Part shown: positions 23,849-62,508 of the stretch, piece by piece
Numbering within the stretch: position 1 is the stretch's first letter
Layout: each line of letters begins with the position of its first letter
NCBI RefSeq assembly: GCF_001640025.1
Contig: NC_031671.1
Span: 1,054,001 to 1,118,000, forward strand
Reading direction: 5' to 3'
Length of the DNA stretch: 64,000 nt
Origin: Sugiyamaella lignohabitans
Lineage: Eukaryota; Ascomycota; Dipodascomycetes; Dipodascales; Trichomonascaceae
Translations under genes and position numbers: made by a program
Notes under the pieces: generated by a model
Seen by the model: the letters and a program-made list of their open reading frames with translations, nothing else
Databases searched by the model: none
Told to the model about the DNA's origin: nothing

Positions 23849-23909
23849 CGACTCGAGCGAAGCGAGAGGAGCCACGGGGTCTGGGGCAGAGCCCCAGCCG
23901 CCGGAGGCA
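23849..23909 (-). repeat. GCH element downstream of UBC6 (sense)
   Basis: Leftmost member of the GC-rich hairpin family. Read on the minus strand it begins TGCCTCCGGCGG, then a CTGGGGC/GCCCCAG hairpin, GACCCCGTGG and the CTCTCGCTTCGCTCGAG tail. It ends 112 bp past the UBC6 stop. Confidence 0.9.
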
Positions 23910-24021
23910 GGCCACAATCAATATATACCAGATGAAAGCCATTAATATCTACCAGAACAGAAACAAAAAACAAATATGTGCATGTATATGAAAAATAGGG
24001 AGCCATTAGCAGGCAATAGTG

Positions 24022-25362
24022 TTAGCGATATACCTGGATGAGGTGGCTGGCAAGAACATAGGATGCGACAACAACTACAACACATAGCGCCTTCTGGCCT
24101 AGTGAGAATCCGCTAGTGTTAGTGGTAGCCGTTTTTTCAGTTTCCTGGCCAGCTCCAGCTTGTACTAGAGTGGCAGTTCCTGACTGGGTAACCCCGTTAG
24201 GCTTCTGAGAGGCCGTAGAGTTAGCAGAGGCAGCAAGGGCTTCCTGGGCCTGTTGAGCCACCAAATCGGCAGAATTTTTCTTGGCCACCTCGGGGAAATG
24301 GATATTAAAGTTGACGTTATACTTGACATTCCAGGCAAGTGACTCTCGAGCGAGCTTCCGTTTCTGTTCGTCGGTGGAAATCATCGACCCGGCAGTCGAC
24401 TCGTCTGAAACCATAAAACTCAGTAACCCCGTCAAAATCGTGCTCACAGACCACGCAGGGTTCCATGTCTTGGGGTGATAATCGGAAATCGACAGGCACA
24501 ATCGGGTACTGGTCTTAAACCGGCCACTAGGAGTCATCATCCGGATAGCAGGTGGTTTGAATGGGTAATCCGCCGGAAAAACTAGTGTGCCATGGTACTG
24601 GCCTCCTTCATATGGAGTATCAGGGGGTCCTGTTATCAGGTAGTGCCATCTGGCTATGTTAGTGATCTTTCCATGCTGGCTGCCTCCGGCGGCTGGGGCT
24701 CCGCCCCAGACCCCGTGGCTCCTCTCGCTTCGCTCGAGTCGGGCGTCGGGTTCCCACGGATTATTATTGAAATAGTCCGATATATGTCGACCTGATATCG
24801 TGCTATTTCATAGATCTGACGAATTTCAGTCCCTGTCTCTGGGAAGAGGTTGGGTTCGGACTGGAGAATGAGGTGGCGTTGGTTCCGATCCTGAGTGATC
24901 CACAGAACAAACTTACTCTAAAATGTTCGACTCACTTGGTAGTGCTTCTATGTACTGTGTGGGGTTTTCTTGGATTAATTTATACTCCCTCGCCAACTGT
25001 TTTGTTGTTAGTCTATTGTTCACGGCCGCTTATATCGGACTCGGTGTTCCGAATAATGTCCTTCATCACTTGACCGGGCCTCGTGGTTGTCTCCTTCGAG
25101 TCTGGCTTTGATCCTGATCTCAGGACACTATAGTTTAGACCACTCGTGTGAAGAAATTTCACAGCGATACAACCTGATATAACAGTCCCAGATCCATATC
25201 AACCGCGGAACTCCACTACGAACGGCCACTGAATAACTCCTGTGAACCGCACAGAAGCTCGCGAAGCGAGCACAACGCGGTCTGGGGCAGCGCCCCAGCC
25301 GCCGGAGGCACACCACTTTCATCGAACCAACTTACTCTTTTGTGAGCGGCTTTTGTAGCCAT
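24022..25362 (-). CDS. UBC6: ER tail-anchored ubiquitin-conjugating enzyme E2 Ubc6 (three exons)
   Basis: Exons are 25336-25362, 24917-24996 and 24022-24649, giving a 244-residue protein starting MATKAAHKR|LAREYKLIQ, with SNILE|WHYLITGPP at the second junction. It is the ER-associated degradation E2 working with Doa10-type ligases. The UBC fold spans about residues 5-160. The catalytic cysteine is in TRLCLSISDYHP (C87), the typical Ubc6 position, and the GGQYHGTL and FPADYPFKPP blocks are intact. A Thr/Ala/Gln-rich linker precedes the C-terminal membrane anchor (about 220-240, LCVVVVVASYVLASHLI). Both introns (339 and 267 bp) start GTAAGT, have a CTAAC branch point and contain one GCH element each. 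In intron 2 the first AG after the branch point (CTAACATAG) must be skipped for CCAG to keep frame. Confidence 0.95.
24681..24741 (+). repeat. GCH element in UBC6 intron 2 (antisense to gene)
   Basis: Full-length element with the CTCTCGCTTCGCTCGAG tail, inside the 267-bp intron and 31 bp from its 3' splice site. Confidence 0.9.
25258..25310 (-). repeat. GCH element in UBC6 intron 1 (sense)
   Basis: Short-tail variant whose second hairpin is CTCGC-TTC-GCGAG instead of CTCCTGC-TTC-GCAGGAG. It starts about 25 bp from the 5' splice site. Confidence 0.9.
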
Positions 25363-26744
25363 GTTTGCGGACTTGTATCTGTTAAACTGGTTGATATATT
25401 GGTTCACAAATATGAAACCATGCCGGTATCTTCAGGTTGGGACCTGGCGGTAACTTGGCCCTAACCCACCAGTGATGATGCCGTTCAAAATGGGCAGTTC
25501 AATGGGAACGCCAGAATGGCGTACCAGATGTGGTGGTGAAAGGGCTCATTTTCCGCACTTGGAAGTTGGACGTGTGGTGTTTCCATTTTTGCTGGTTGTA
25601 GTTATGCCCTTGTGTTTATGAAATTCGGTATGAGTTATCAAGATCAGGTCGGGCAAGAAATGTGCTGGTGCTTGCTTGCTTCTGAAATGCTTGTTATAAT
25701 ACCGTTAGTAATAGCTCGGTAATTAAGGTAGCTGGACTTCGGACTCTCTGTTATTGATTTTAGCGGTTTTTGTGCTTATACCGATGATATACCGAGTAGC
25801 GACTGTTTGCGACTGTTTGCTATTGTCTCTTGCATTGGTACCTGTGGAAATATGTTCAGCAGATCACTATCACTGCATGCACGGTTAATTGGCGATTATG
25901 CACCTGGATGTGAGGGTACCGACAAAGTGGCCAGCATTTACTGCTTATCAACTGGAGCCTCTGTATCGGTGACATTCCCGCTGTGATTGGATAGGTGTTC
26001 TATATTGCTAATATATTGGTCACTTGGTCAACCCTCGACATACTTCGTGGCTTTCAGCTCCACGTCCCATCCTCTCAGCTACTCAATTACTTAAAAACTA
26101 ACTACCCAGCCATCTGCTCGAGTGTCACTTTCTTTACTAAATAATACAACTGGCTTTTAAATTATTGCTTTTACAGTCTCGATATCAGCTCCTTCATTCT
26201 GTTTATCTCTAGATTGGTCTTTTAACCCTATTACAATGATGGGTGTTTTATGTGTGTGCTTCTATCGCTGCTGCTGTCACCTGCTGTGTGTCAATTAGCC
26301 GCCTCGTTATTAGCCAATCTCTATAAACTTCGATACCATACTCCAGTATTTTAACTCGAATCATTTAGGTTAGTCTCGCTATTATCTAATCTTATTCTAT
26401 TTACTCTTTTTATCACCTTATCGTAGACCCTCATCTCCCCTGCCTCGTTATCATGGGTTAGGTTTACGTTTGTATACAAACGTACATATTCCTAATAATA
26501 AACATGACGGTTAATCTCCACCACAAACCTAAATCGCCGCTACCATCTAAGACACTTAAAACATAGTTTTGAGTTGAGTAGCAGGATATAAATATACGAC
26601 TGTTGGGCATGTTGTGTGTTGAACAAATGAGAAATTAAATATCCAGTGGAATCAGTTTTTTGTGTCGATTCATTTTTTTCATATTTTGTCACTCCTTGAA
26701 ATTTTGTTATTTTTTAGTTTATATTCGATCTATAGACAGCAGTG
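25363..26744. other. Divergent UBC6/MEH1 intergenic region, no gene seen
   Basis: About 1.4 kb between divergent start codons, with no motif-bearing reading frame on either strand. The right 150 bp are T-rich, as expected for a MEH1 leader. Confidence 0.4.
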
Positions 26745-27287: not shown

Positions 27288-27386
27288 CCCATATGTGGAT
27301 TTCTATATTTTATTTGTTCTGCTTTCTTTGGTTCCTCATAGTATTTATAATTGTAATGTAATATTCAACTGCTTTTGGGGCTCGTT

Positions 27387-27446
27387 GCCTCCGGCGGCTG
27401 GGGCTCCGCCCCAGACCCCGTGGCTCCTCTCGCTTTGCTCAAGTCG
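27387..27446 (+). repeat. GCH element downstream of MEH1 (sense)
   Basis: Full-length type; the tail is slightly degenerate (CGCTTTGCTCAAGTCG in place of CGCTTCGCTCGAGTCG). Confidence 0.85.
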
Positions 27447-27837: not shown

Positions 27838-28041
27838 AATTGATGGAAGTGATTTTTTTCACCTGCTGACAACCTGGGTATATGCGCCAAAAGAGACAGA
27901 CCCTCCACAGGCCTTTTTCTGGTGAAATATGAGTCCAACCAACTACAAACGACTACCACAGCACTCAAAACGCCATAAAACAGGTAGAAAACCCCGAAAT
28001 AAGCACGGGGAACTAAAACTACCGAGTACGGTCCGAGCCAT

Positions 28042-28096
28042 CTCCTGCGGAGCAGGAGCAACGGGGTCTGGGGCAGCGCCCCAGCCGCCGGAGGCA
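28042..28096 (-). repeat. GCH element downstream of SNRNP27 (sense)
   Basis: Variant with second hairpin CTCCTGC/GCAGGAG. It lies 66 bp past the SNRNP27 stop, reading with the gene. Confidence 0.85.
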
Positions 28097-28162
28097 CACC
28101 CTCCACTGTATTCGTTCAAAGAATTTGAAATACAGGAATAAATAAGAAGCAGATAAGAGCTG

Positions 28163-30776: not shown

Positions 30777-30914
30777 TGCCTCCGGCGGCTGGGGCTCTGC
30801 CCCAGACCCCGTAGCTCCTGCTTCGCAGGAGACCCTGGACCGTAGACGGGGAACCGACTCGAGCGGAGCGAGAGGAGCCACGGGGTCTGGGGCGGAGCCC
30901 CAGCCGCCGGAGGC
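30777..30914. repeat. Inverted pair of GCH elements between convergent CHM7 and UBX genes
   Basis: A plus-oriented copy (30777-30831; CTCCTGC/GCAGGAG hairpin) and a minus-oriented copy (30854-30914; CTCTCGC-type tail) face each other across about 22 bp. Each is sense for the gene that ends beside it (CHM7 stop 50 bp left; UBX stop 40 bp right). Confidence 0.9.
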
Positions 30915-30954
30915 AGATGGGGATCACACGTGTTTTTTATGAGAAATGTACTGG

Positions 30955-33141
30955 CTAGCTATTATTGTCGTCCTCGAGGTTGAGTTGGTTGCCGTTGTAG
31001 GTCAGACGGTCGTCTTTGGCGTCGTCGTTGTCGTGGAGGGTGCGGACGTTGACGGCGGAGGAGGACCGACTGCTGCTGATGCTGTTGGGCTTGCTCGGGT
31101 GGACGTCGTCTCGAGGTTGGGAAAACGAGTTTGCCGACAAGAGGGTGGCCGGGGCCGGGTTCTCTGATTTTGGTGGCGATGGAGACGACGGATTAGTGTT
31201 GTCAGATGGCCGTGGAGTGGGCAGAGGAGTGCTATAACCACTTCTTCGTGGATTAGGAACAGGACTGGCCGACCGTGAAGGCTCGTCAGACGGCTCCGAT
31301 GGAGCGGGTGGAGGGGGTTTGTATCCTATACCAAGAAAGGTATAAATGGCGTCAGAAATGGTGCGGGTTCCTCCTTGCAGCCATGCCGACGGTGAATATG
31401 AGGATGAGTATGCATTAAGGACGTTTTCAGCGGGTTTGAGGATCAGGGTAGACGAAGGACATAGATCTAGTTCTAGTAGGGTAGAGTTTTCTTCTCCAGG
31501 ACCAAAGGAGCGTTTTGGAAACGTCTGGTAGAATTGATAAGGGTCTTCCGAGTCCGTTCTGTTCTCATCAACCCATTTGCGAACGATATCTAAAGTATCG
31601 GAGTTGTTGAAGATATTTTTTAGGGCCTGGCCATCAAACAGTCGGATGACAAGTGCACATTGATTAGACTGAGAAAGTGACAGTGAGCGAGTTTGTTTCT
31701 TTTTTTGAGGGATTGTGGTCGATTCAGCAGCCAACGGAACATCTTGTTGCTCTTGTTGGTGGTGTAATCGTTGAGCACGTCTTTCTTCACGGTCTGTTTC
31801 CAGTAGACGAAGTATGCGTTTTCTTTCCTCAGCATCCGCCTGTCTTTGCTTTCGCAATTGTATCTGGTATCGTTGTGTATCAGATAAGCCAGAAGACGAC
31901 GAGGTCGAGCTGGAGTGGGTGTTGGAAGTGTTAGTAGAAGCAGAAGCAGCAACAGAGTTCGTTGGAGTGGACGATTTCTCTTTACGAGGTACGGGTGGAT
32001 TAGTGGGTTCCGGGCTCGAACTGGATACATCATTAGCCCCAGAATTCGATGCACTATTTGTTGATGTTGTTGTGGAACCAGAACCCGATGTGGATATTGT
32101 ATTATTGTGTGATGTCGATGCGCTACGATCGGTAGCAGCATCTGAACCACGAGTTACAGCTGAATCATCAGCAGTTGAATTGCCAGCTCCAGTGGAATTC
32201 GACGAATCAGAACCAGCAGAAGGTGTGACTGAAGAGACAGAAGGAACTGAAGCAGAAGAACCAGCTGGAAGTCCACTTGCAGACCCCGACCTGCCTGTCA
32301 GAGCAGCAACAGCAGCGGCAGCGGCAGCAGCAATTGCGTTCTGATCGAGAGAAGAACCATTCGAGCTATCCAAACTAGACTGATTCTGAACATTTGCGGT
32401 CGAACCAGTGTCGTTTCCAGCACCACTGGTATTACCACTGACGTCTCTGACGCCCCTAACCAGGCCCTGATCTGCCTGAGCCAGGCGGTCTAGAAACTCC
32501 TGAGCATCGACCTCACTGTCGAAACGGTCGACAACCACCGACTGATTTATAATAAATATGCTTGGAATCTTAGCTACGGGGAACACCTGGCTGAAAAACA
32601 CATACTGCTGCGACCCGGCGACCACTTCTAACGGGACAAACTTGGTCTGGATATACGACTCAGCCTAAAAACACATGTCAGTAAAACGCTATTCACGGTC
32701 TCGATGCCTCCGGCGGCTGGGGCTCTGCCCCAGACCCCGTAGCTCCTGCTTCGCAGGAGTCAGCCAGGCCCGTCGACGCCCCGACTCGAGCGTAGCGAGA
32801 GGAGCCACGGGGTCTGGGGCGGAGCCCCAGCCGCCGGAGGCATCGACCCCCAACCACACGTGGGGGCCATACCCCGGGCTCCCGGGCCCTTTTGGGGTAA
32901 AACTCACCTGAGGCTGGTTCACGAGCCTGTCCGCCCATAGCAAATCGTCTGAAAGAGACTCGGAAGAGACTGGAACTGGAGTTAGACATTTGGGTCCTGG
33001 ATCGAAGGTGGGGGCATGTTCGGTACCCCGCACCGGCGGCGAGCACTTACCGGGACTGACCAATACCAGGAGCTTCTTATTCAGCTGCAAAGACTGGCCA
33101 ATAGCCGTCTCCACGGACTTGTGAAAGATGGACTCCTTCAT
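30955..33141 (-). CDS. UBX-domain protein with N-terminal thioredoxin-like domain (UBXN4 / Ubx6-Ubx7 type), three exons
   Basis: Exons are 33051-33141, 32908-32975 and 30955-32664 (622 aa). The N-terminus reads MKESIFHKSVETAIGQ, then LVLVSP|V, LVNQPQ|AESYIQTKF, FSQVFPVAKIPSIFII. That is the UAS/thioredoxin-like fold of UBXN4, with the cis-Pro IPS and no CxxC. A long Ser/Asn/Thr-rich disordered middle (about 140-330) precedes a charged helix rich in Arg/Glu (about 330-380). The UBX domain follows (about 400-490): ALVIRLFDG, then FPKRSF and TLLELDL, the loop that docks on Cdc48/p97. The C-terminus is Ser/Pro-rich. It probably links Cdc48 to the ER/nuclear membrane, by analogy. Intron 1 (75 bp) lacks and intron 2 (243 bp) contains GCH elements. 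Intron 1 has tandem possible acceptors 6 nt apart, both in frame. Confidence 0.85.
32705..32842. repeat. Inverted pair of GCH elements in UBX-gene intron 2
   Basis: A plus-oriented copy at 32705-32759 and a minus-oriented copy at 32782-32842 are separated by 22 bp, the same spacing as the 30777 pair. Together they make up over half of the 243-bp intron. Confidence 0.9.
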
Positions 33142-33356: not shown

Positions 33357-33417
33357 TGCCTCCGGCGGCTGGGGCTCCGCCCCAGACCCCGCTGCTCCTC
33401 TCGCTGCGCTCGAGTCG
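33357..33417 (+). repeat. GCH element upstream of the UBX gene
   Basis: Full-length copy with CTCGCTGCGCTCGAG tail, 215 bp upstream of the UBX-gene ATG. Confidence 0.9.
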
Positions 33418-33472
33418 GGCGTGTGGGGTCTCAGAGCTCCTGTGGTAATTAAAACGTGGGCACCCCCTCGCC

Positions 33473-33533
33473 CGACTCGAGCGCAGCGAGAGGAGCAGCG
33501 GGGTCTGGGGCGGAGCCCCAGCCGCCGGAGGCA
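33473..33533 (-). repeat. GCH element downstream of PDC (sense)
   Basis: Full-length copy ending 59 bp past the PDC stop, an inverted partner of the copy at 33357. Confidence 0.9.
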
Positions 33534-35384: not shown

Positions 35385-36360
35385 TGTAGATAGTGAGTGA
35401 GTGATTCAGGCTTGTTGGACGACTGTTCGTTTGGATGAGAATTGGCCTGTTTGTTTTGTTTGTGTGGTGATGGAAAGTATTAGAGAATTGCAATTGATCC
35501 AATTGACTTGACTAGTGGAACGGGTGAAAAAAAAAATTGGGAACAAAAATAGGATTAGGTTGCCTTTAAATAGAGAAGCCAGGAAAATCACCTTGCGAAA
35601 CAGGCAACCGATAAAGAGAGGTGGGCCTAAATTTACACATACTACATACACCCTCACCTCATTAAGCATGGACCAGTATCTCCAACGCACAGTAACAAAG
35701 AAACCCGTGCAGCAACCAGGAGTTATGCAAACTTTACGCCCATATGCGGAACTCGGTGCGTGATATGACGCAGCTAACGGTAAACAAGGTCAACTCAGGC
35801 CCGCTAGCACCGCAAATGGTGAGACACCGTGAACATCCGCTAGCAATATCTGCATCTGCACCTGCTCCTGCACCACCACCACCTGAGCTTTCTGTAACAT
35901 GCACAGGGTTTGGAGGGGCCGATATCATCCGTTCGGAAAAACTCCCTCGCCTCAATAAACGCTGCATCTCAACTTACCGGATGTCATACAGTCTGCTGTC
36001 AAATAAGCTACTGTCACATCACATACACATGGCCAGATCTTTTGTGGCAACAGAGACAATTCCCTGGAACGGGAGTCCAATTCCATGAACTGATGTGGAA
36101 CCGTGTTATTCCACTTGCAACGGTTGATAGGTCCATTTGTCTCGTTATCCTGACTCAGCGCCCGCCCATCCACCTCAAACCCGGGTCATGACCATGTCAT
36201 AACCAACAATCGTCATTCATCGATCACCGGAAGTTTGTATACAATCTTCCTCGAGCTAGCGACATCGCCTAATCTTTCAACAACCACGCTCCACTCCCAT
36301 AAACCCCAACAACAACACCAACATCGAACCCCAAACGACCCATCCACCACCCCCCAACCG
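35385..36360. other. PDC upstream region; possible short coding exon
   Basis: Holds the PDC promoter. A plus-strand frame from the ATG at 35668 (MDQYLQRTVTKKPVQQPG, then VMQTLRPYAELG, ending by 35763) looks coding-like and is followed by a GTGCGT and, 18 bp on, a GCTAAC. I cannot complete a convincing spliced gene. Otherwise nothing recognised. Confidence 0.3.
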
Positions 36361-36413
36361 CTCGCGAAGCGAGCACAATGGGGTCTGGGGCAACGCCCCA
36401 GCCGCCGGAGGCA
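36361..36413 (-). repeat. GCH element, short CTCGC/GCGAG variant
   Basis: Intergenic copy directly abutting the C24 tract that begins at 36417. Confidence 0.85.
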
Positions 36414-36416
36414 CAA

Positions 36417-36810: not shown

Positions 36811-37028
36811 TGCCTCCGGCGGCTGGGGCTCCGCCCCAGACCCCGTAGCTCCTCTCGCTGCGCTCGAGTCGTTGCGTGGGGGTCCCCCAGTAGGAGAACT
36901 GTGTGGTTTTTTTTGTACCGGGGTGCTCTGCACCGGTTCCTGGTCCCCTTCGTTGCGTCGACGGTCCTAGTAACTCCTGCGAAGCAGGAGCAACGGGGTC
37001 TGGGGCGGAGCCCCAGCCGCCGGAGGCA
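36811..37028. repeat. Inverted pair of GCH elements, intergenic
   Basis: A plus copy at 36811-36871 (CTCTCGC tail) and a minus copy at 36974-37028 (CTCCTGC/GCAGGAG) are 102 bp apart. No gene is adjacent on the left; the PIPK-3 duplication begins to the right at about 37345. Confidence 0.85.
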
Positions 37029-37349: not shown

Positions 37350-37930
37350 AATCAGTGTGCAGTTACTGCTGGTCAGTCTGGCTCTTGTCCTGAATACGTG
37401 CTTGCCAAACTGTAGGAGGCGAGGGATACTTCCATCAATATCGGGAATCCTATTAGAACTGTGAAGTGAGTCCCAGGGGCCATGTCATGGTAGGATGGTA
37501 CTGCTAAAATTCCATTGGTCAGGGTCTCAAGTCTAGTCGAATGCTCATCGTCCGTCCATAGAAATTGTAAGCCTTGAAATCCAATTCCAAAATGTCGCTA
37601 AGGAAGCGCCGCAATTGGAAGGATTCAAGAATGTCCAGGAGTAGACTGGCAAGGAGCCAGATCTACCATAGTCGAACTGTCTAAATCGTCGTCTGCTCGC
37701 GGTGTGCGAGGCGACAGATGAAGTGAACAACAAGGGACAATGAGCGAGTAGTGAGACTAGAGACCAAAAACCAATGAATAGCAGCGCTTTTCGGTTGGGA
37801 CTCGGGATGCCGCCAACTGAAGATCGCTAATCCGAAGGGAGGAGTACCAAATGTGAAACCATGACCAGGGAGAGTTGAAGATCAGTTCGAATTCATTTGT
37901 CAACCATCAAATAACAAGATAGTCTCACCA
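37350..37930 (-). pseudogene. Decayed coding relic downstream of PIPK-3
   Basis: Near-identical to 15030-15680 over much of its length, including LESFQLRRFLSDILELDFKA and YNFYGRTMS, but with different stops and indels. The word YHPTMTWPLGL is retained, which links it to the 21.8 kb relic. It belongs to the same ~3 kb duplicated block as PIPK-3. Confidence 0.6.
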
Positions 37931-38051
37931 TGAACTAATAGTCTTTACCAGTATTGATCCCTTGAGAAATAAGAATGGCAAACAAGGCAATAATGAAAGC
38001 CTAAAATCAAGCTAAACTGACCAGGGTGATCGCACATCATGAAAGGAGAAC

Positions 38052-39860
38052 TTAACAACGAATAGACACTGATCTGCCAGGTCTAGGGACCACAGCAGAT
38101 TGAACGAAATTGAGGAATCTCGCTCCATACTTCGAAGGGTGAACAACGTCAATAGCGGAGCTTCCAAAGATTAGTGATTTGGAAATGGTCTCCGCTCTCT
38201 TGCGCCAACTAAAGGGGCAAAGGGTATCAATCATACCAATGACAGGTTGTTGTTGACAAGTACGAGTGTCACTCTGAAGTCCTACCAACAATGAATAATC
38301 CATGATGTTGTGTCGCTTCAAGAAATCGACATCCTTCGAGACTTGAACCATTAACTTGTCTCTGTCCTCTTGACTCATGGAGATAGCCTCATGTTTGTCA
38401 GTCCAGTCAAGATCCTTGAACACTACACGACCACGATTGTCTTTTCTAGGTCCAGCACGTCGGTCATGGGTCGATCCCTTGAGGTCGTAAATCAATTGAG
38501 TTTCTTTCTGAAGCAAATTCTTCATAATGACAAAGTGAGTCTTCTTTCCACCAGCAACAAGGGTGTAGTTTCCAAGATAGAAAGGGAGCTGAGTACTGGG
38601 GTGGGCCTTGACATGATTGTAGTAGTCGGCCAAAAATTCCGCATTAGCAATGACGTTGTGCTCCTTGCGTTTGATGGTCTTAATAATGTACTTGCCATCA
38701 GGTGTAAACAAGAAATCGGATCCAGATTTGCCAGGAGATTTAGTCTTGGTCAAGTCAGACTGCAAAACAAACGAGTTCAAAAACTCATGACAGTCAATTC
38801 CACAAAGGGTGCGGATGTTCTGATAAACAATAGGCGAATAGGCCTTAATAATGGCACCACCATCAAGTCTGTATTTCTTGTTCTCCATAGTGAGGTTCTC
38901 ATGGCTACTAAGGGGAGTAGCATAGACGGCAGTTTGAATCCCATTAAACATGAGAGTGGATTTCGTAATAGGGGCAGTGCGTCCAGTAAAAGAAGTCAGC
39001 TTTGCCTTGGCTCTTGTCAATAACAATGGTGTCTTGGACTTGTCGACTTCTTCAACCTGAATGACCAAATTGTCAGAGGGAGTGTGAGTAATGGGCTTAG
39101 ATAGAGCCAATGGAGCTGTCTTGAGAAGCTCGAACTCTGAGTCAGCTTTGTGGCCACCAGAAACAATCAATTGTGGCAAGTCCTTGTACAAGGTTGCAAC
39201 GGAAATAATCTCAGCAATAAGGCTGTCAATAGAAGAATTGCTGGTAGGGATGTCAGCAATAGCGCAAGGAGTCTCAGCCACCTTTGCAGGGGTGATTTCC
39301 TCAGATTCAGCCAAATCGCTGCTAGTGGTCTCCAAAGGCAACTCAACCAATGTTGCATCGCCATGGGACTCGATAGGAGAGTCACTCTCATCAACTTCAA
39401 TGGGGCAATCAGACAGAGCCCAATAGGCAGCAGGAGCAGACCAGGTAGCCTCAGTGTCTTCCTCAGACCGGGCAGATTCAATTTGGCGGGTGGTAAAAGC
39501 AGCCTCGTCTCCAGCTTCAAAAGACCACTCAGAACAATTGACATCATCATTGTCAACGGGAGCAGAGTAGGTGTGGCTCGACTCTTCACAATAAGGTTGT
39601 TCAGAAACAATATCAATGGGTTTCCAAACTGTAGGTTCATTGAGGGTCTCATCAGATCCAACCGAGACACCAGAGTCGTCGTCGGAACATTCAAGGATCA
39701 AAACCTTGTGATAAGCAAAAGCAGAACGTCTGGCAGCACGACGGTTCTCTTGTTGTGCACAAGCACCATACTTGGGCACAACAATACCACGGTTGACGTC
39801 ACTCAAGACACCTCCATTAGAGGAACAATAATCACCGTTGGTAAAGAACGAAGCACCCAT
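38052..39860 (-). CDS. PIPK-3: close paralog of PIPK-1
   Basis: A 602-residue single-exon protein starting MGASFFTNGDYCSSNG at the ATG inside the start-codon inverted repeat (a longer frame upstream has only a TTG). The catalytic half is almost identical to PIPK-1, including SPGKSGSDF, YIIKTI, DLKGST, MDYSLLVG and GMIDTL, so it should be catalytically competent. The N-terminal acidic/Trp-rich half has more substitutions and a few extra residues (EESSHTYSAPV). Compared with PIPK-1 and PIPK-5 it lacks the HRVPRRP-type segment: SNGG runs straight into VLSDVNRG. This means a genomic deletion removed the intron region and about nine codons. It lies in a ~3.1 kb segmental duplicate (37346-40430) of the 15028-18260 block. 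Confidence 0.87.
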   Translation of the reverse strand: MGASFFTNGDYCSSNGGVLSDVNRGIVVPKYGACAQQENRRAARRSAFAYHKVLILECSDDDSGVSVGSDETLNEPTVWKPIDIVSEQPYCEESSHTYSAPVDNDDVNCSEWSFEAGDEAAFTTRQIESARSEEDTEATWSAPAAYWALSDCPIEVDESDSPIESHGDATLVELPLETTSSDLAESEEITPAKVAETPCAIADIPTSNSSIDSLIAEIISVATLYKDLPQLIVSGGHKADSEFELLKTAPLALSKPITHTPSDNLVIQVEEVDKSKTPLLLTRAKAKLTSFTGRTAPITKSTLMFNGIQTAVYATPLSSHENLTMENKKYRLDGGAIIKAYSPIVYQNIRTLCGIDCHEFLNSFVLQSDLTKTKSPGKSGSDFLFTPDGKYIIKTIKRKEHNVIANAEFLADYYNHVKAHPSTQLPFYLGNYTLVAGGKKTHFVIMKNLLQKETQLIYDLKGSTHDRRAGPRKDNRGRVVFKDLDWTDKHEAISMSQEDRDKLMVQVSKDVDFLKRHNIMDYSLLVGLQSDTRTCQQQPVIGMIDTLCPFSWRKRAETISKSLIFGSSAIDVVHPSKYGARFLNFVQSAVVPRPGRSVSIRC

Positions 39861-39878
39861 TTTATCAATTAAAATGGA
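39856..39878 (-). promoter_or_regulatory. Inverted repeat over the PIPK-3 start codon
   Basis: Same as at PIPK-1, but the outermost pair is mismatched (CCCATTTT opposite AAAATGGA on the plus strand). Confidence 0.55.
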
Positions 39879-40029
39879 CAACAGTAAGAGAGTAGTTGAA
39901 AATAGTGTTGAAAGCGCTGGTTAAAAATTCACAGAACAAAAATAAAGTGTAAGAACAGCTGTAGTTTTATTCTGAGGAGAAAAAAAGAAGAAGAGAAGAA
40001 AAAAGACCATTGCAGCGGATTTTCTTTCA

Positions 40030-40128
40030 TATATATACACGGGGCTCTAAAGATTATGTTGATGTCTGCACCGACCACATAATCTTGGTTCACAGACCCG
40101 GTCGAGCTGCAGCCTGCAGCCTGCGGCC
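40030..40128 (-). promoter_or_regulatory. PIPK-3 core promoter block
   Basis: TATATATA (about 40030), the AAGATTATGT/ACATAATCTT inverted repeat (40050-40086) and a CTGCAG cluster (about 40109-40126), in the same order as PIPK-1. Confidence 0.7.
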
Positions 40129-40298
40129 GGCAGGGACCACACCCGCTATAGTACCAGCTGGAACTCCCGCTAGAAATCAACCTGTGACGAGCCGGAATTA
40201 TCGCAAAGAGCAAAAGATCAAGCATAATCTATTATTTCGATTTACCACCCTAATTCTTGTATGGATATTGAGTTTGATCTCGATCGATAACCTTACTT

Positions 40299-40420
40299 GG
40301 TACGGCAATGCCAGGGGTAATCTCATCGCCGCTGCCAAGCGGATACTGGCCGATATGCAAGATAACGGGCTGGCAGCACGGGGTATGCATACCGCTCGGG
40401 GGGACCCTGGGGGTGGCCAG
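40299..40420 (-). promoter_or_regulatory. Distal upstream module of PIPK-3
   Basis: Contains CAGGGGTAATCTCATCGC, CGATATGCAAGATAACGGG, CTGGCAGC and GGTATGCAT on the plus strand. It matches the module at PIPK-5 closely and at PIPK-1 more weakly. A GCH element abuts it directly (40423). Confidence 0.65.
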
Positions 40421-40422
40421 GG

Positions 40423-40473
40423 TGCCTCCGGTGGCTGGGGCTCTGCCCCAGACCCCGTGGCTCGCTTCGCTCG
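40423..40473 (+). repeat. GCH element abutting the PIPK-3 distal module
   Basis: Variant with TGCCTCCGGTGG start and a short GCTCGCTTCGCTCG tail. It is in the same position and orientation relative to the module as the copy at 62457. Confidence 0.8.
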
Positions 40474-40791
40474 TTACGCAGGGGCCGCCAGCCCGTGCAG
40501 GATGGGGTTTTAGGTGGGAGAATTGCGGCTGGGAGCACCACAAGTGCTATGCTGAGGCCTCAGTAACCCGACAAAACTGGAAATTCACCACAAAAATTAT
40601 CCCAATTAACAGGGTTTCAGCCCAGGAAGAGTTTATAACTCACAGAACCGGTTTTTGACTATTCCATTTGAGCAATTGACTGAACAGCAAAACCCTTCGC
40701 GGCCACTACCCACCACCAGAAAATCATTCGGACAAACCAAACAACCCCAATCTTTGAGCCCCAGAACCCAGCGGACGGGACCCCCAACGCC

Positions 40792-40852
40792 CGACTCGAG
40801 CGAAGCGAGAGGAGCCACGGGGTCTGGGGCAGAGCCCCAGCCGCCGGAGGCA
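40792..40852 (-). repeat. GCH element upstream of AIM24
   Basis: Full-length copy 98 bp before the AIM24 ATG, antisense to it. Confidence 0.9.
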
Positions 40853-42405: not shown

Positions 42406-42466
42406 CGACTCGAGCGCAGCGAGAGGAGCCACGGGGTCTGGGGCGCAGCCCCAGCCGCCGGAGGCA
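42406..42466 (-). repeat. GCH element between convergent AIM24 and PMU1-like genes
   Basis: The only copy in this convergent gap. It is 14 bp past the PMU1-like stop in sense for that gene and antisense for AIM24. Hairpin 1 has loop TGC. Confidence 0.9.
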
Positions 42467-46921: not shown

Positions 46922-47060
46922 TGCCTCCGGCGGCTGGGGCTCTGCCCCAGACCCCGTAGCTCCTGCTTCGCAGGAGATAGCTAGGACCGTCGACGAAACG
47001 ACTCGAGCGCAGCGAGAGGAGCAACCAGGGTCTGGGGCGGAGCCCCAGCCGCCGGAGGCA
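46922..47060. repeat. Inverted pair of GCH elements between convergent CDC5 and RPB11
   Basis: Plus copy 46922-46976 (CTCCTGC/GCAGGAG) and minus copy 46999-47060, 22 bp apart, each sense for the neighbouring gene (84 and 53 bp past the stops). The flanks GGGGGCAT and ATGCCCCC extend the inverted symmetry beyond the elements. Confidence 0.9.
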
Positions 47061-47113: not shown

Positions 47114-47736
47114 CTAGTCGTCGGTCTCGGCGAGCATGGCCTTGAGACCGTACTCGGCGCGGAACTTTTCGGACAGGACACTGAGCTGGCCAATGAGGGC
47201 GCTGCACGCGTTTTTGAGCGCTTCTTTAGGAGTATACCCGTCCTGGGTCTGGATTCGCATCACGAAGTTGGCGAACAACGGGTGCTCGATCTTGTATGCG
47301 GCAAACACGACCTGGGGGTCCTGGAGCAGCTGGGCTTTAATCAAGTTGCCCAGTGTATGATCCTCTCTCTCGAACTTGATAATCGCAGCATTTGGCATCC
47401 GCAAATCGGGCGACACCGTGAGTCTGGGGTCTGTTAGTGGCTGGTTGGGGGTTGTGCCTCCGGCGGCTGGGGCGCTGCCCCAGACCCCGTTGTGCTTGCT
47501 TCGCAAGCAGCGCGTGGGGGCCGCGGTGTAGGGTAGTGGACAGCAAATTTGAGGAGTTTGGACCAGAACCACTTGGTAAAAGTGGCTGATGTTGGATGAG
47601 ATGCGGGTGAATGGGGTTGCTAAAGGTGAAGACAGAGCCATCTGAAAATAGCAGGGAGAGAAATGGGTTTACAGGGTACTTACTTGGAGACGCCATCGGG
47701 CAGAATGAATAACTCGAAACGGTCTGGGGCGTTCAT
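47114..47736 (-). CDS. RPB11: RNA polymerase II subunit Rpb11 (two exons)
   Basis: Exon 1 is 47684-47736 and exon 2 is 47114-47423, giving exactly 120 residues, the length of S. cerevisiae Rpb11. It begins MNAPDRFELFILPDGVS; the junction codon makes K, then LTVSPDLRMPNAAIIKFE. The alpha-like dimerisation motif EDHTLGNLIKAQLL is intact; Rpb11 pairs with Rpb3 as the assembly platform of Pol II. The 260-bp intron is GTAAGT, CACTAAC, CCCCAG. The AG directly after the branch point (CTAACAG) is out of frame and must be skipped. The intron contains a GCH element, antisense to the gene. Confidence 0.95.
47455..47509 (+). repeat. GCH element in RPB11 intron (antisense)
   Basis: Variant with hairpin-1 loop GCT and a second hairpin TGCTTGC-TTC-GCAAGCA, another compensatory version of that stem. 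Confidence 0.9.
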
Positions 47737-48891
47737 TTTGTCTGTTTGTGTGTTACCTCAGCCGCCGTCTGTCTGATCAGGTGTGAAGTATTTCAGACTC
47801 GTGAAGCTCTGACTGTATTCGGTAATGCAGCTGCTGCCAGATGGCACTCTTAAAGCATGTTATGCTTGTACCGGGTCTCACGCCAGGCTGACAGCTCAGT
47901 TGACAGAAGCCTGTGAATTTTATGGTCAAGATTCGTTTGTTGGTCAAGAGGATCTTCCAGTCCGTCACTAATTTCAGCTCTGTTCTCTGAGCTGAAAACT
48001 CCAAGAGACTTTGGGGGTCGATTTGAGTAGCTCTCACGGGATAGCCATACTACTGTCCTATATGAACATATTATTCACATTGCCAAGTATCACTATCGGA
48101 TGGCTATCTATCCACCATATAATTTGTTTTACAGTTGGTTATTATTTATTTAACCATTGATGATTGATATCCAGCCAATGATTCCACACTTGAATCGCCT
48201 GAACTGTCTGCCAACTCTCAATTCTGAACCCGACAGGCAGCAATCAACCCTGAAAGTGGCATGTACCTCCAGCGGCTGGGGCTCTACCGCAGACCCCGTA
48301 GCTCCTGCTCAGCAGGAGACGGCTGGGCCCGTCGACGCCCCGACTCGAGCGCAGCGAGAGGAGCAACCAGGGTCTGGGGCGGAGCCCCAGCCGCCGGAGG
48401 CATTCCCCGGACCCTGCATCTCAGCTCCGCGGCCCACTTGGAGCCGATGACGCGCCTGTTGGGTGCCGACAGCGGCAGCCGGGACCAGCCGTGCAACGCA
48501 GCGGGAGATGGCAGAACCCTGGCCCTGAGAGTATCGAGAGTGGTGAATGCGCTTGTCTGAGAGCGACACAGTCGACTTTTTGTTTACCACTGCAACTTCA
48601 CCACCATCGGTTTTTGATTAAGCAATTGCCGGTGTACCCAGAAACCCAAGCTTATTTGTTTGAGGCCGAGTTCTCGATCCACCAGCAGCAAATCACGTCT
48701 CTCATCCAACCCGTGATTGAGCGCCGGTGACGAAAAACCGTGCTGCCAGTCGCATTTCACTTTCGACCTGGGATTCTGACACAAGTGAAAAAAACGGTCA
48801 CCCGTGAATACAATCAAACCAGTCGGAATATAAATCTATCACCACAAATCAAGTTTGCAACGAAGAACAGGATTTCTGAAATCTCTAGAAA
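47737..48891. other. Divergent RPB11/SIN3 intergenic region
   Basis: A 1.15-kb bidirectional promoter region with a GCH pair at 48264-48402. To the right (48420-48730) the GC content stays high and short frames on both strands look coding-like (plus: RFLIKQLPVYPETQAYLFEA near 48610-48670). I could not build a spliced gene with a start and good splice sites. Confidence 0.35.
48264..48402. repeat. Inverted pair of GCH elements in the RPB11/SIN3 promoter
   Basis: The plus copy 48264-48319 is degenerate (ACCTCCAGCGG start, hairpin-1 base changes, loop TCA in hairpin 2). The minus copy 48341-48402 is near-consensus. Spacing is 21 bp. Confidence 0.85.
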
Positions 48892-51800
48892 ATGTCGGGC
48901 CAGGAATGGAACATCCATTCACAGCAGGACGGCTCGCAACCGCCTCCTCCTCCCGATGCTAACCGCCATCACCAGACGTTTGTGTAAGTTTTTTGGCTGG
49001 GGGGTGTGTGCCTCCGGCGGCTGGGGCGTTGCCCCAGACCCCGTTGTGCTCGCTTCGCGAGCGGCGTGGGGACTGGGGTTGTTAGTGGGGTGCTGTTGCC
49101 GTGGCTGGGGAAGTGCCAGCGAGCGACGGTCTGGATGAAGCGACTGCTGCTAGGAATGGTTGAGTTTTGAGTGTTTTGTTCACGGATCCAGTGTGTATGA
49201 GACTCAAGTTTCGTAGATGCTAATGGTTGAATGGTTTGATGGTATCGTGAGACACACTCATTTGTGAGACATTATTAGCGGTCACACCAGTCACAGCAGC
49301 AGTATCGGCATCAGCATCGGCATCAGCATCAGCATCAGCTGGAAAATAGTAGCCAGTAGAACAGTGGTGCCACTGTTTTGACGAGTTTTGTTTTTTAATG
49401 GCATTTTAATTATACCAATAATTTGTCATCATTCTCAGGATATTTACTAACTGAATGACAGAACCCCACAAGGAGGTCACCCTGTTCTGCCACCACCTGC
49501 TTCACTTAATGGAGCTGGATCATCTCGTAAGTGACACCAGCAATGGAAACAAATGTGCTCGAGGAGTCTGTCACATTGCTCCCACAACTTGGATTTGATT
49601 CCAATGACCGCCATTCGCTTCGCTAAAGCTCCTACGTGCCTGAAGTTGCGACCTTGTACCCCAGTAAGCTCGCGAAGCGAGCACTACGGGGTCTGGGGCA
49701 GCGCCCCAGCCGCCGGAGGCACATATCCAACCAATTTCAGAACCGGCTGGTCCCAAGTAAGCTCGCGAAGCGAGCACAACGGGGTCTGGGGCAGCGCCCC
49801 AGCCGCCGGAGGCACGGTCACCACCCCCCAAGAACCCCTAAGGAGCCCTAAAACTAACAAGAATCGCAGTTCCAGGCCAAGGAAGGCCGTATTACTCGTC
49901 GTTGCCGTCGATTTCGGGGTTGAGTGGTGGTCCTGGGGGTCCACCTCCACGGAGCACCTCGCCAGGGGGTGTACACCCACACCAGCACCAGCATCAGCCA
50001 AGTCCAGGCCAGGGTGGAGCAGGACCTCATTCGTTACAAAATCAGGGTCCAGGTGGTCAGCAGCAGCCCCAGGGACAACCTGGAAATGGCCATTCGCAGC
50101 CTCAGCAGCAACAGCCGGGTCAACAGCCAGGTCAGCCAGGCCCACCAGGTCCACAACAACAACCCGGCCAACAACAGCGTCAAATGCCTGGTCACCCGTC
50201 TCCACCACCTCCACCACCACCTCCTCCACCCTCGCAATCTCATAACATGCTCTCAATTCAGTCGCTCAGCGGTGCTGGAGGTCCTCCTCCACCTGCTTCT
50301 CAGTCCAACCGATCTCCTCCAGTCGGTCCAACCGCGGCTTTGGCTCAACAGCAGCAACAACAACCATCATCTGGTCCAGGAACCTCGTCTGTGGGTCCTT
50401 TACCTCCTCAACAGAGCCCTCAACTCCAAACAGTGCCTCCTCCACCCTCACAGGCCTCTGGATTGAGTTCGCTGGCTCAACTTGGCGGAGCCGCCGCAGG
50501 CACTGCGGCGCAGGGTCCGCCCGGCGGACATGGCCCACCACCTCCATCTCAAACAGCATCTCAAACAGGACCTGCTCCTGGTGGTCTTGGCCAGCCACAA
50601 ATCCCTCCAACATCACCCAACCAGCAACACCAGCAACAACAGCAGTCGGCAGGACTTCCTCCCTCGGCAGCTCAAGTCCTCCAACCAAGCCCAATCCAGT
50701 CGGCCCAGCAAATCGCCGAGGCCGCGGCGTACCGCCCTTTGAATGTCAAGGACGCTTTGTCGTACCTCGACCAGGTCAAAGTCCAATTCCAGAACCAGCC
50801 GGACGTGTATAACCACTTCCTGGATATCATGAAGGACTTCAAGAGCCACAGGTAAGTGCCCGGGAATGCCTCCGGCGGCTGGGGCTGCGCCCCAGACCCC
50901 CCGGCTCCTCTCGCTGCGCTCGAGTCGGATGTCGACGGTCCCAGCAGCTCCGCGAAGCGGAGCACAGCGGGGTCTGGGGCAGCGCCCCAGCCGCCGGAGG
51001 CACAGTCCCCGGTCCAGAAATAGTTTACTAACTTTGCAGTATTGATACCCCTGGGGTTATCGACAGGGTGTCGAGTTTGTTCCGTGGCCACCCGAATTTG
51101 ATTCAGGGGTTTAACACGTTTTTGCCGCCCGGGTACCGTATCGAGTGCTCGATGGATCCTATGGATCCTAACCCGATTCGTGTTACGACGCCCATGGGTA
51201 CTACCAGCAGACCCGATGGTGAGCCTACTATCCCGTATCCGGGAGATGGAAGGTGGGGTGGTCCTCCTCAGGGTCCTGGTCAAGGTCTTCCTCCTGTGGC
51301 AGGTCAACCGCAGTTACAGGGTCCTGGACAGGTTCAGGTTTTGGAGCAACAGCAGGTTCAGCCACCTGGGGTTCCAGGCCAGCAGCCTCAGGGACCTCAT
51401 CCTCAGTACCAGAGAGTGCCATCTGTGACTGAATTGGGTCCAGGCGGTGCTGGAGGACTGCCTCCTCAGTTGCAGCAACCACAACAACCACCTCAGCAGC
51501 CTGGTCAGCAGCAACCTCAGTATCCAGGTTACTTGGCTGAACAACAGCAACAACAACAACAGCAGCAGCAGCAACAACAACAACAGCAGCAACAACAGCA
51601 ACAGCAACAGCAACAACAGCAGCATCCAATGGGTCCCCCAGATCCTCAGACTCAACCGTTTAATAGCAACGGTGCCATGTCAGAATTGCATGCCGCTGCG
51701 AATGGCGGGCGTCCTCCGATGATGACGGAGCAACAAAGAAGACAGGGAGGTGGTCCAGTCGAGTTCAACCATGCTATTAACTACGTGAACAAGATCAAGA

Positions 51801-55532: not shown

Positions 55533-55762
55533 GCCTCCGGCGGCTGGGGCTCCGCCCCAGACCCCGTAGCTCCTGCTTCGCAGGAGTTTTCTGGGGCCCA
55601 GCTGTTGGGAACAGTGGCCGTGAGACAGACTCCGGCAGCTTGGGCTCTGCCCCAGATCCCGTAGCTCCTTCTTCGCAGGAGTTTCCTGGCACCGAGCGGT
55701 TCGACTCGAGCGGAGCGAGAGGAGCCACGGGGTCTGGGGCAGAGCCCCAGCCGCCGGAGGCA
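55533..55762. repeat. Cluster of three GCH elements downstream of SIN3
   Basis: Plus 55533-55586 (sense to SIN3, 118 bp past its stop), a decayed plus copy 55629-55681 (ACTCCGGCAGCTTGGGC start) and minus 55702-55762. The decayed copy keeps the CTCTGCCCCAGA and GCAGGAG blocks, showing substitution decay of old copies. Confidence 0.88.
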
Positions 55763-58429: not shown

Positions 58430-58630
58430 GAGTTGCAGCACGTTTGCCACCCTCTTAAATTTTGACTTTGTTTTGGCGTTTGGGTAAAACTATTAGATTG
58501 TCTTTTTTTAATGTAATTAATTAATATTAATAGAGTTTTTAATATCTCAAACTCCTAATCTGATGAACAGACTCCATGGTCCTAGCAGTCCGAATCCAAG
58601 TTCATCCGTCACTAGTCCACTGTCACAGCA

Positions 58631-58684
58631 GCTCGCGAAGCGAGCACCACGGGGTCTGGGGCAGCGCCCCAGCCGCCGGAGGCA
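58631..58684 (-). repeat. GCH element downstream of PFA4 (sense)
   Basis: Short CTCGC/GCGAG variant, 65 bp past the PFA4 stop. Confidence 0.9.
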
Positions 58685-58749
58685 AAAATCAACCACAAAA
58701 GTGACGAAAGAGTAATAAATAAATGTAATATGTAACAGGTCGCATGGAC

Positions 58750-60010: not shown

Positions 60011-60609
60011 GGCGTGTGATCCGGTAAAACACCATGAAGTTCACGAAGTTCGAATATCTGTCGCCAGTACGGCTCATACAAATACCCCTTCTATACAGAC
60101 ATCCGACCGGCGGCAGCTCGGTCCGCGAAACAGTCTCCATCACCCAAAACATGGCCAATGGCCACTAAAAAACTCATCCAACGAGGCAATCGGTCCTGGA
60201 GGACCAATTTATACAGAAACAGGGGCTCTGGAGTCCACGTCTGGATCCCCTGTGTGCCTCCGGCGGCTGGGGCTCCGCCCCAGACCCCGTTGCTCCTGCT
60301 TCGCAGGAGAATACTCCGGGACCAAAACGTAACGACTCGAGCGAAGCGAGAGGAGCCACGGGGTCTGGGGCGGAGCCCCAGCCGCCGGAGGCAACAGTTC
60401 CCACGGAAATACGGCCCTGGACGTCTGGGTTAGGAGTGGACCCTGGAATTTTTCAGGGCTAGGATGTGTGAAAAAGATAAGCGATGGCAGGTGCGTGAGT
60501 CTTTAAAGATCGAGGAGCGAGAGATAGCGACGGATCGTAATATACAGCATCATCTGTGGACCAAGTTTAGTGTATACAGCGGTTGGAAAGTAGTTAAGGA
60601 TAGTATAAA
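60011..60609. other. Divergent PFA4/ARG4 promoter region
   Basis: 600 bp between divergent starts, holding a GCH pair in the middle. TGAGTCT near 60497 resembles a Gcn4 site (TGASTCA), fitting general amino-acid control of ARG4. Confidence 0.5.
60255..60393. repeat. Inverted pair of GCH elements in the PFA4/ARG4 promoter
   Basis: Plus copy 60255-60309 (CTCCTGC/GCAGGAG) and minus copy 60333-60393 (CTCTCGC tail), 23 bp apart. Confidence 0.9.
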
Positions 60610-62007
60610 ATGAGCAGCGAGCAACCAGCAGAGTTGAAATTGTGGGGTGGTCGTTTCACTGGCGGCACCGATCCTTTGATGGAGCTGTACAACGCTTCTT
60701 TGCCCTATGATAAGAAGATGTATGTTGCCGATTTGGAGGGCACTCGTGTTTATACTTCGGCTCTTCACAAGGTGGGCCTTCTTAACGATCACGAATTGTC
60801 TGAGATCCACCGAGGATTGAAGCTCGTAGAGGCTGAATGGGCTGAGGGAAAGTTTGTTGAGAAGCCTGGTGATGAGGATATCCATACTGCAAATGAGAGA
60901 AGATTGGGCGAGCTCATTGGCCGTGATATTTCTGGTAAGGTTCACACTGGTCGTTCTCGTAATGACCAGGTCGCTACTGATATGAGATTGTATGTTCGTG
61001 AAGAACTTGCCAAGATCCGTGCTATTTTGGTGGGTCTTATCAAGGTGTTTGTTTCTCGTGCTGAGAAGGAGATGGACATTCTCATGCCTGGTTACACTCA
61101 TTTGCAAAGAGCTCAACCCATTCGTTGGTCGCACTGGTTGAGTTCTCATGCCACATATTTGGCCAATGATTTAGAACGTCTTGACCAGGTCATCAAACGG
61201 GTCAACAGATCGCCTCTTGGAGCCGGTGCTTTGGCTGGTCACCCTTACGGAGTTGACCGTGAGTACATTGCCGACAACCTGGGTTTCGAGTCTGTTATTG
61301 GAAACTCTTTGACTGCTGTTGCTGATAGAGATTTCGTTGTCGAGACCTTGTTCTGGGGTTCTTTGGTGTTGAACCATTTGTCGAAGTTCTCTGAGGATCT
61401 GATCATTTACTCGACTGCTGAGTTTGGTTTTATCAAGCTTGCCGACGCTTACTCTACTGGATCCAGTTTGATGCCTCAAAAGAAGAACCCCGACAGTTTG
61501 GAGCTTCTTCGTGGTAAGAGTGGTCGTGTGTTTGGTCAATTGGCTGGATTCATGATGTCACTCAAGGCTACCCCCTCAACCTATAACAAGGACTTGCAAG
61601 AAGACAAGGAGCCCTTGTTCGACTGTCTGACCACTGTCAGCCACTCACTCTCCATTGCTACCGGCGTCATCTCCACTTTATCTGTTGACGCTGCTAAAAT
61701 GAGAGCTGCTCTGACCATGGACATGCTCGCCACCGACTTGGCTGACTACCTTGTCCGCAAGGGCGTCCCCTTCAGAGAGACCCACCACATTTCTGGCGAG
61801 GCTGTTGCCACTTCCGAAAAGCTCGGACTTTCAGGCATCGACCAACTCACTCTCGAGCAGTACAAGCAAATCGACGCTCGTTTCGATGCCGACGTCGTCA
61901 ATGTCTTCAACTTCGAGACCTCTGTCGAGCGTCGTACTGCCACCGGTGGTACTGCCAAGTCCGCAGTTCTCGCTCAACTCAAGAACATCGCATCTTCTCT
62001 TAACTAA
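60610..62007 (+). CDS. ARG4: Argininosuccinate lyase
   Basis: A 465-residue cytosolic enzyme of the fumarase/aspartase superfamily that splits argininosuccinate into arginine and fumarate, the last step of arginine synthesis. Visible blocks are [12 protein letters not shown] at the N-terminus, [16 protein letters not shown] (substrate binding), the catalytic His region [17 protein letters not shown], and the superfamily signature [12 protein letters not shown] (residues 284-295), whose flexible loop carries the catalytic Ser. The length and blocks match yeast Arg4. Single exon. The upstream TGAGTCT (about 60497) may be a Gcn4 element. A GCH element begins 42 bp after the stop, sense. Codon usage looks biased to C/T-ending codons, suggesting good expression. 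Confidence 0.97.
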
Positions 62008-62049
62008 CCTCTCACGCTAAATATATTAATTCTACTCGTACTGGGATTG

Positions 62050-62111
62050 TGCCTCCGGCGGCTGGGGCTCCGCCCCAGACCCCGCTAGCTCCTCTCGCTG
62101 CGCTCGAGTCG
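62050..62111 (+). repeat. GCH element downstream of ARG4 (sense)
   Basis: Full-length copy with CTCGCTGCGCTCGAG tail, 42 bp after the stop codon. Confidence 0.9.
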
Positions 62112-62507: not shown

Positions 62508-62508
62508 C

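Follow-up and report, generated by a model that had tools for sequence, protein, structure and literature searches.

In bacteria, repetitive extragenic palindromic (REP) sequences and their inverted doublets, known as bacterial interspersed mosaic elements (BIMEs) or REPINs, are mobilised by TnpA-REP/RAYT (PMC6006769). Fungal mitochondria carry GC clusters and double-hairpin elements, and transfer of GC clusters between species has been reported (PMC4478555, PMC2800124). Here we analysed a GC-rich palindromic repeat in a 64,000-nucleotide stretch of the yeast Sugiyamaella lignohabitans (contig NC_031671.1, positions 1,054,001 to 1,118,000; hereafter the window), where a sequence-only reading had noticed hairpin elements just past the stop codons of 13 housekeeping genes. 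Each element proves to be one arm of a palindromic repeat of ~138 bp, mostly 132-147 bp, whose identical heads TGCCTCCGGCGG face outward. The searches made of the open-access literature found no description of this GC-rich palindromic repeat.

The unit is built like a REPIN, and fails on two REPIN traits, the guide and the Y1 transposase. As in REP sequences and REPINs, each short hairpin is preceded on its 5' side by a constant foot, and the copies occur in inverted doublets, at high number, in intergenic regions and with several stem families (PMC6006769). However, the yeast foot is GCGG within GCCTCCGGCGG, whereas the REP guide is given there as GTAG/GTGG (PMC6006769). Moreover, the repeat resides in a yeast nuclear genome in which no Y1 transposase was found, and the enzyme occurs in 4 of 14 bacterial carriers. 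The fungal mitochondrial GC clusters and double-hairpin elements share with it the GC-rich palindromes, the double hairpins and the variable loops (PMC4478555, PMC2800124). Yet the clusters are described as mitochondrial, whereas the yeast repeat sits on contigs of 2.3-5.9 Mb with nuclear genes in thousands of copies; in addition, no consistent duplication of their AG/ACT type was seen at yeast units. The DNA uptake sequences (DUS) and uptake signal sequences (USS) of Neisseria and Pasteurellaceae resemble it as words of ~9-12 bases that occur in at least 1000 copies and in inverted pairs and cluster where the ends of genes meet, but their paired words themselves form a short terminator stem with a T-run, whereas here each word precedes its own hairpin (PMC1852404). 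Likewise, hairpin-directed polyadenylation in mimivirus places a palindrome behind genes and in polyadenylated mRNAs, but that system is viral, and its hairpin sequence is described as not conserved (PMC4402537).

Architecture and copy number of the repeat unit

The analysed DNA comprised the window, 25 stretches of 10 kb picked by coordinate (17 of them on contig 1, four being contig starts) and six loci of ~3 kb around matches, 331,689 bases altogether, and word searches covered the whole genome of 15.93 Mb on four contigs. Genes were called from open reading frames (ORFs), without introns or expression data; a first call by codon score gave 79 genes and was then widened to 89, of which a few are possibly false, and some genes were missed.

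Each arm consists of the head TGCCTCCGGCGG, hairpin 1 (CTGGGGC-nnn-GCCCCAG), ACCC, a free linker and hairpin 2. Genome-wide, exact 12-base heads lying 100-130 bases apart are arranged head-out in 1054 cases, compared to 15 head-in and 22 direct. The exact 19-mer that starts the arm occurs 5342 times (2675 forward, 2667 reverse), and its reversed control not at all; the word TGCCTCCGGC followed by a base other than G adds a further 211 copies, against 9 for the reversed control. Among the 307,968 12-mers of the yeast sample, GCCTCCGGCGGC is the commonest. A profile search located 177 half-elements in the sample, with 33 head-out pairs at 132-147 bp, and the 123 halves found in 250 kb extrapolate to ~7800 for the genome. 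The window itself holds 39 halves by profile, and 36 copies of TGCCTCCGG against 0.35 expected from shuffles.

Arm positions are mostly conserved, whereas the loops, the linker and the core between the arms drift. Over the 33 full units, which were detected with an arm profile that itself favours conserved arms, the mean pairwise identity is 0.94 for the left head and hairpin 1, 0.83 for the left hairpin 2, and 0.91 for both right parts, compared to 0.465 for the core and mostly 0.23-0.33 for the outside flanks. Conservation extends to parts of the arm beyond the seed word, namely GCCCCAG, ACCC and the type A form of hairpin 2, of which the central base is free and takes all four letters (39/22/13/7) amid fixed neighbours. 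An agreement of 98.3% with the consensus in the "constrained" arm columns is partly circular, as these columns were chosen as conserved, and was not used. By hairpin 2 type, 24 of the 33 units are A/B and four A/C, and five have one arm relaxed or unclassed. At variable sites, the arms of a unit did not co-vary significantly (p 0.08 for the loop and 0.05 for the linker, from the 24 of 33 units that could be used). The flanks look close to random apart from a run rich in G that precedes the head: GGG is present in the 15 bases just before the head of 109 of 177 halves, and in the 15 bases before those of 41. Simple youth of the copies cannot account for this pattern of conservation; selection, either for a host function or for mobility, can.

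GNA mini-hairpins are a DNA-specific class of loops. The idea that the loops of the repeat are of this class on the antisense strand was rejected as a general rule: the loop of hairpin 2 type B is TTC in 30 of 33 cases, hairpin 1 fits in only 96 of 150, the A arm fits through its own defining motif and gains no special stability in a folding program, and bacterial loops are often TTT or TGA.

Orientation of the elements follows from unit geometry

The sense orientation of the elements follows from the symmetry of the unit, and a function on the sense strand is not needed. Because the unit is head-out and nearly palindromic, its proximal end reads TGCCTCCGG first behind any gene. Of the 71 genes in element-bearing loci of the sampled genome DNA, 45 have their stop codon no more than 150 bp from a half, which is in sense in 42 of these 45. 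With full units set aside, 25 of 28 halves near stops are still in sense. The same geometry appears at the other end of genes, where 21 of the 22 halves within 500 bp upstream of a start have the head facing the gene. Intergenic regions between tandem genes (<2.5 kb) hold elements in 13 of 20 cases; all 13 hold both orientations, and in all 13 the first half is in sense to the upstream gene. Among five convergent regions with a single half, four have it nearer the gene to which it is in sense, and in the fifth (L012, 116 bp) it is about equidistant. Head-out pairing at variable spacing accounts for these observations, and strand bias was therefore rejected as evidence for a role of the sense strand.

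Preference for gene 3' ends and GC-rich blocks

Units lie preferentially behind genes, at their 3' ends, and in blocks of high GC content. At loci with at least three halves, a sense half lies within 200 bp past 41 of 59 stops, and any half within 200 bp upstream of 13 of 56 starts. The first half starts 3-180 bp past the upstream stop in 11 of 13 tandem regions, and the density per kb falls from 3.14 elements in short convergent regions to 1.46 in tandem and 0.73 in divergent ones. The earlier claim that the pattern does not come from random insertion is likewise supported. Over 44 genes the stop-to-element distance ranges from 3 to 180 bp, so that the element has no fixed position in the 3' untranslated region, and in 11 of the 44 it is 3-26 bp, which leaves little space for a preceding poly(A) signal. 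The distance from stop to head is exactly 53 bp in six of the 44 genes (p 0.01 against a smoothed null, for genes at up to 120 bp).

Across the 25 stretches, the number of elements per 10 kb correlates with GC content, both in the sequence outside the elements (rho 0.92) and at third codon positions (GC3; rho 0.74). Seven stretches, four of them contig starts, have no elements. GC content itself comes in blocks, at 0.410-0.425 in the seven element-free stretches and up to 0.515 in the richest, a block structure that could reflect recombination or mixed ancestry.

The claim that every housekeeping gene is followed by an element fails outside the GC-rich block. In stretches with no or two halves, whose DNA was read, no half lies behind the CDC73-, PNO1-, TSR1-, VPS8-, MIOS- and HSP70-like genes, and an NSUN2-like gene in a low-GC stretch is followed, 53 bp after the stop, by a degenerate half. 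As element-poor, low-GC blocks hold housekeeping genes, the element is not generally needed for ending transcripts. The first 23 kb of the window, which include a rhomboid gene and two PIP5K genes among others, likewise hold two variant heads only. One lies at about 8317-8366(-), where a perfect head TGCCTCCGGC with a different hairpin is found 82 bp past the gene 8449-9699(-). The other, at about 19170-19217(-), combines a perfect head and a different hairpin with a ACCCCGTT tail, 122 bp past the PIP5K gene 19340-20926(-); the low ends of both are approximate. The statement that the PIP5K genes have no element is therefore not fully correct, as this gene is followed by the head, though with another hairpin.

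Copies of the repeat in bacteria

Some unrelated bacteria carry the head of the yeast repeat at high copy number, often just past stop codons; there it precedes a hairpin whose sequence is free and which often has ACC after it. A scan of bacteria for the head and a GGGGCT..GCCCC hairpin matched at least 119 stretches, mostly from Desulfovibrionaceae, Desulfoluna, Oscillospiraceae and other clostridia, and alphaproteobacteria. In 22 of the 31 genomes with a match the 12-mer is at least fivefold over its reversed control, with a maximum of 778+780 copies against 0 in Desulfoluna limicola; the other nine, including four actinobacteria and a Myxococcota metagenome-assembled genome (MAG), show no such excess, and their matches may be due to chance. 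Among copies unselected by the pattern, 43 of 70 heads are directly followed by a hairpin of at least 6 bp, compared to 0.45 in shuffles; these have 28 different stems, and ACC or ATCC comes just after the hairpin in 24 of the 43. To our knowledge, no DNA uptake is known for the hosts of the GCCTCCGGCGGC repeat.

The 119 loci, which were chosen with the yeast pattern, hold 202 heads. After 79 inside called reading frames are set aside, 72 lie in sense behind a stop at a median distance of 28.5 bp, another 34 point at a start (median ~130 bp) and 17 have no such neighbour. Six 20-kb stretches of Desulfoluna were taken by coordinate from a genome picked for its many copies. In these 120 kb GCCTCCGGCGGC is the commonest of 115,125 12-mers, with 30 copies, nine of them in called frames; of the 20 with both neighbours, 16 lie past a stop in sense and four face a start, and none was found in nine divergent regions. 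Neighbouring bacterial copies at most 400 bp apart are head-out in 18 cases and direct in one.

Of the relatives seen, the nearest is a sphingomonad MAG (G028), with 115+94 copies of head-N-ACCCC in 3.4 Mb, on contigs that carry bacterial genes such as FtsY and ClpA. In stretches chosen for visible pairs, nine of ten head-out units measure 125-128 bp and one 97 bp. Their arms read GCCTCCGGCGGCTGGGGC-loop-GCCCCAGACCCC and, outside the loop of hairpin 1, match the yeast arm, with single-base differences in three of 20 arms; the unit cores vary. A stop lies 4-16 bp from two of the ten units (L164, L166) and from three single heads (L114, L162). The remaining eight units fall in or overlap called open frames, which may be false at 65-72% GC. 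Between elements on L114, a gene of the beta-lactamase family (PF00144) occupies 510-1868. Among the matches listed, with a strict pattern that misses variants, repeated hairpin copies were seen by eye in three genomes out of 247 from the phylum of Desulfoluna; in two other phyla (119 and 120 genomes) the centre genome alone had them. This patchy spread fits mobility. In the viral collection three contigs match, and the IMG/VR contig L153 carries GCCTCCGGCGGCTGGGGCTTTACGCCCCAGAGG, which is near to the yeast arm.

Local clustering of variants and the PIP5K duplication

Variants of the yeast repeat cluster by region. Along contig 1 the linker class forms 28 runs, compared to 45.8 expected (p 0.00015; 94 of the first 100 pairs, six unclassed ones being dropped), the loop of hairpin 1 and the linker class depend on the stretch (p about 0.02), and full units are more alike within than between stretches (p 0.009). 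The two closest cores among the 33 units are those of neighbours.

A PIP5K segment is present in three copies in the window, at 15277-17948 (copy A), 37523-40483 (copy B) and, inverted, 62448-64000 (copy C), which are 89-92% identical. The flank with the half-element is 84% identical; copies B and C carry the half, at 40423-40477(+) and 62455-62507(-), and copy A, in the element-poor part, does not.

Two further repeats were seen in the sample. The first ~1.1 kb of all four contigs (L009, L025, L027 and L028) are 87-94% alike and are probably a subtelomere repeat, and L017 3729-4665 matches L018 4836-5783 in inverted orientation over ~960 bp at 83%, which would be another repeat or mobile element.

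Elements of the window

The gene names in the window are backed by Pfam, with matches for UBC6 (UQ_con), MEH1 (LAMTOR), SNRNP27, CHM7 (Snf7), UBX, PDC (TPP enzyme), AIM24, a PMU1-like gene (histidine phosphatase), CDC5 (polo kinase), RPB11, SIN3, PFA4 (DHHC) and ARG4. For the CDC5 protein, the best match that carries an organism name comes from Trichomonascus, at 41% identity. The recomputed distances from stop to element agree within 1 bp with those given before (98 rather than 99 bp for MEH1, 39 rather than 40 bp for UBX), and recomputation returned the same 12 of 13 elements in sense, with AIM24 as the antisense case. It also bore out that AIM24 shares its element with a convergent neighbour: the single half at 42406-42466(-) lies 83 bp past AIM24 in antisense and 14 bp past the phosphatase gene in sense. 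The 13 cases are not independent, as CHM7(+) and UBX(-) stand at the two ends of one 139-bp full unit at 30777-30915 (halves 30777-30832(+) and 30855-30915(-)), and CDC5(+) and RPB11(-) at those of another at 46922-47060, also 139 bp. As RNA, the latter unit forms a long stem with a fold of -106.6 kcal/mol (z -10.69).

The profile located further full units at 32705-32842 (138 bp; halves 32705-32762(+) and 32782-32842(-)), 48264-48402 (139 bp, degenerate left head), 50867-51002 (136 bp; 11 bp past an ORF ending at 50855 and 149 bp before the SIN3 ORF), 55627-55762 (136 bp, past SIN3, degenerate left head) and 60255-60393 (139 bp, in the divergent region upstream of ARG4). Longer head-out pairs are found past PDC at 33357-33533 (177 bp; halves 33357-33417(+) and 33473-33533(-)), at 36811-37028 (218 bp; 36811-36871(+) and 36972-37028(-)) and at 43666-43872 (about 208 bp; 43666-43725(+) and 43811-43872(-)).

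Half-elements past stops, likewise located by profile, are those at 23849-23909(-) (112 bp past UBC6), 27386-27446(+) (98 bp past MEH1), 28039-28096(-) (66 bp past SNRNP27), 55533-55589(+) (118 bp past SIN3), 58631-58684(-) (65 bp past PFA4) and 62050-62112(+) (42 bp past ARG4). The half at 44601-44661(-) lies 94 bp upstream of the CDC5 ORF, and others lie at 25255-25310(-), 36359-36413(-), 40792-40852(-), 41149-41209(+), 47455-47509(+), 49009-49064(+), 49666-49721(-) and 49760-49814(-). The half at 24681-24741(+), on the 5' side of the UBC6 coding ORF and antisense to the gene, is probably in an intron, judged from the sequence; CTAAC near AG stands beside it.

Possible origin and role

We consider it an even call that the repeat belongs to one family of hairpin-ended, non-coding mobile repeats, REPIN-like in build, that spans domains. 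The best reading is mobile on account of the head-out excess, the regional clustering of variants, the variant heads with other hairpins and the bacterial copies. Such a repeat would work like the inverted REP doublets of bacteria or like mitochondrial GC clusters: a trans-acting enzyme or copying process would recognise the head and hairpin and make new, partly nearby copies, and the preference for 3' ends would arise from insertion into, or tolerance at, transcript ends. Entry into yeast may have occurred by transfer from bacteria, or the reverse, which is a guess. The more specific proposition that a single GCCTCCGGCGGC-headed family spread horizontally among unrelated bacteria and into the yeast nucleus, reaching several thousand copies there with a borrowed or carried mobiliser active in both domains, is put forward tentatively, as somewhat less probable than its opposite.

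Several results weigh against mobility or common descent. The Y1 HUH transposase (PF01797) had no match in the yeast genome, with a control that worked, and most bacterial carriers lack it as well. One yeast unit compared with plasmids and phages gave no match. By eye, the flanks of 33 units showed no clear or consistent target-site duplication, with a possible TCGA at 32705-32842, and no empty site was shown, as the sequence in PIP5K copy A, which lacks the half, may derive from one by decay. The types of hairpin 2 are not clustered by region (p 0.19), and conserved arms are also expected from a host function. In bacteria most copies are single rather than paired, and copies antisense to the upstream gene occupy 12 of 39 tandem regions at the selected loci and three of nine in Desulfoluna. 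Apart from these points, a Helitron search gave no match, but neither did its control; terminal inverted repeats of the kind found in miniature inverted-repeat transposable elements (MITEs; DDE-type) are present in the units; and Rfam 15 run on 13 loci (11 bacterial, 2 yeast) returned three matches at gathering score (RNase P, tRNA, riboswitch), none of them at the element.

The chief alternative, that of a selected host function at the 3' end, acting in RNA through an RNase III-type cut, a termination barrier or protection from exonucleases, or in DNA as a polymerase roadblock, and direction-free by symmetry, is possible, though we think it rather improbable. It would account for the concentration behind stops (41/59 vs 13/56 starts), for the way elements hug the upstream stop in tandem regions, for arms conserved next to drifting loops and core, and for the very stable RNA stem of unit 46922-47060 and the similar position past stops in bacteria. 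However, it sits poorly with the absence of the element behind most genes of low-GC blocks, housekeeping genes included, with a stop distance of 3-180 bp, and with the regional clustering of variants and the patchy bacterial distribution; nor does hairpin 1 have the U-run of an intrinsic terminator, as TTTT follows it within 12 nt in none of 151 yeast halves and in 15 of 172 bacterial copies. Mobility and a selected role at 3' ends may both be true in turn if copies were co-opted. Convergence, by which a GC-rich hairpin with a good flank would have been reinvented in yeast and bacteria, appears unlikely: the 12-mer head is identical although all but its last base lie outside the hairpin, the ACC tail is identical too, and the sphingomonad shares nearly the whole arm and the head-out pairing, even if stems differ freely among bacteria, Desulfoluna and the sphingomonad were examined because they matched, and perfect inverted repeats past stops are described as common in bacteria generally (PMC13155455).

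Still more doubtful is a process of recombination or biased gene conversion in which the palindromes mark recombination-rich, GC-rich blocks and local conversion multiplies and homogenises them with no transposase. The tracking of GC and GC3 by the element count and the local clustering of variants are what it predicts, but conversion towards GC leaves unexplained the drifting loops, linker and core beside fixed A and T bases of the arm, as well as the bacterial copies. Least probable of all is the second idea of the sequence-only reading, by which insertion would pass through an RNA intermediate and be coupled to the ends of transcripts; it agrees with the 3' preference, whereas no poly(A) tail and no consistent duplication were seen by eye beside the 33 units, which are near-symmetrical and found in both orders.

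Altogether, most genes in GC-rich regions of this eukaryotic genome are followed by a repeat whose head and tail, and in one case also the pairing, recur in bacterial repeats. If these indeed form one family, a small mobile element would have crossed domains without a known enzyme; if the repeat is selected at gene ends, it would represent a new kind of bidirectional 3' signal.

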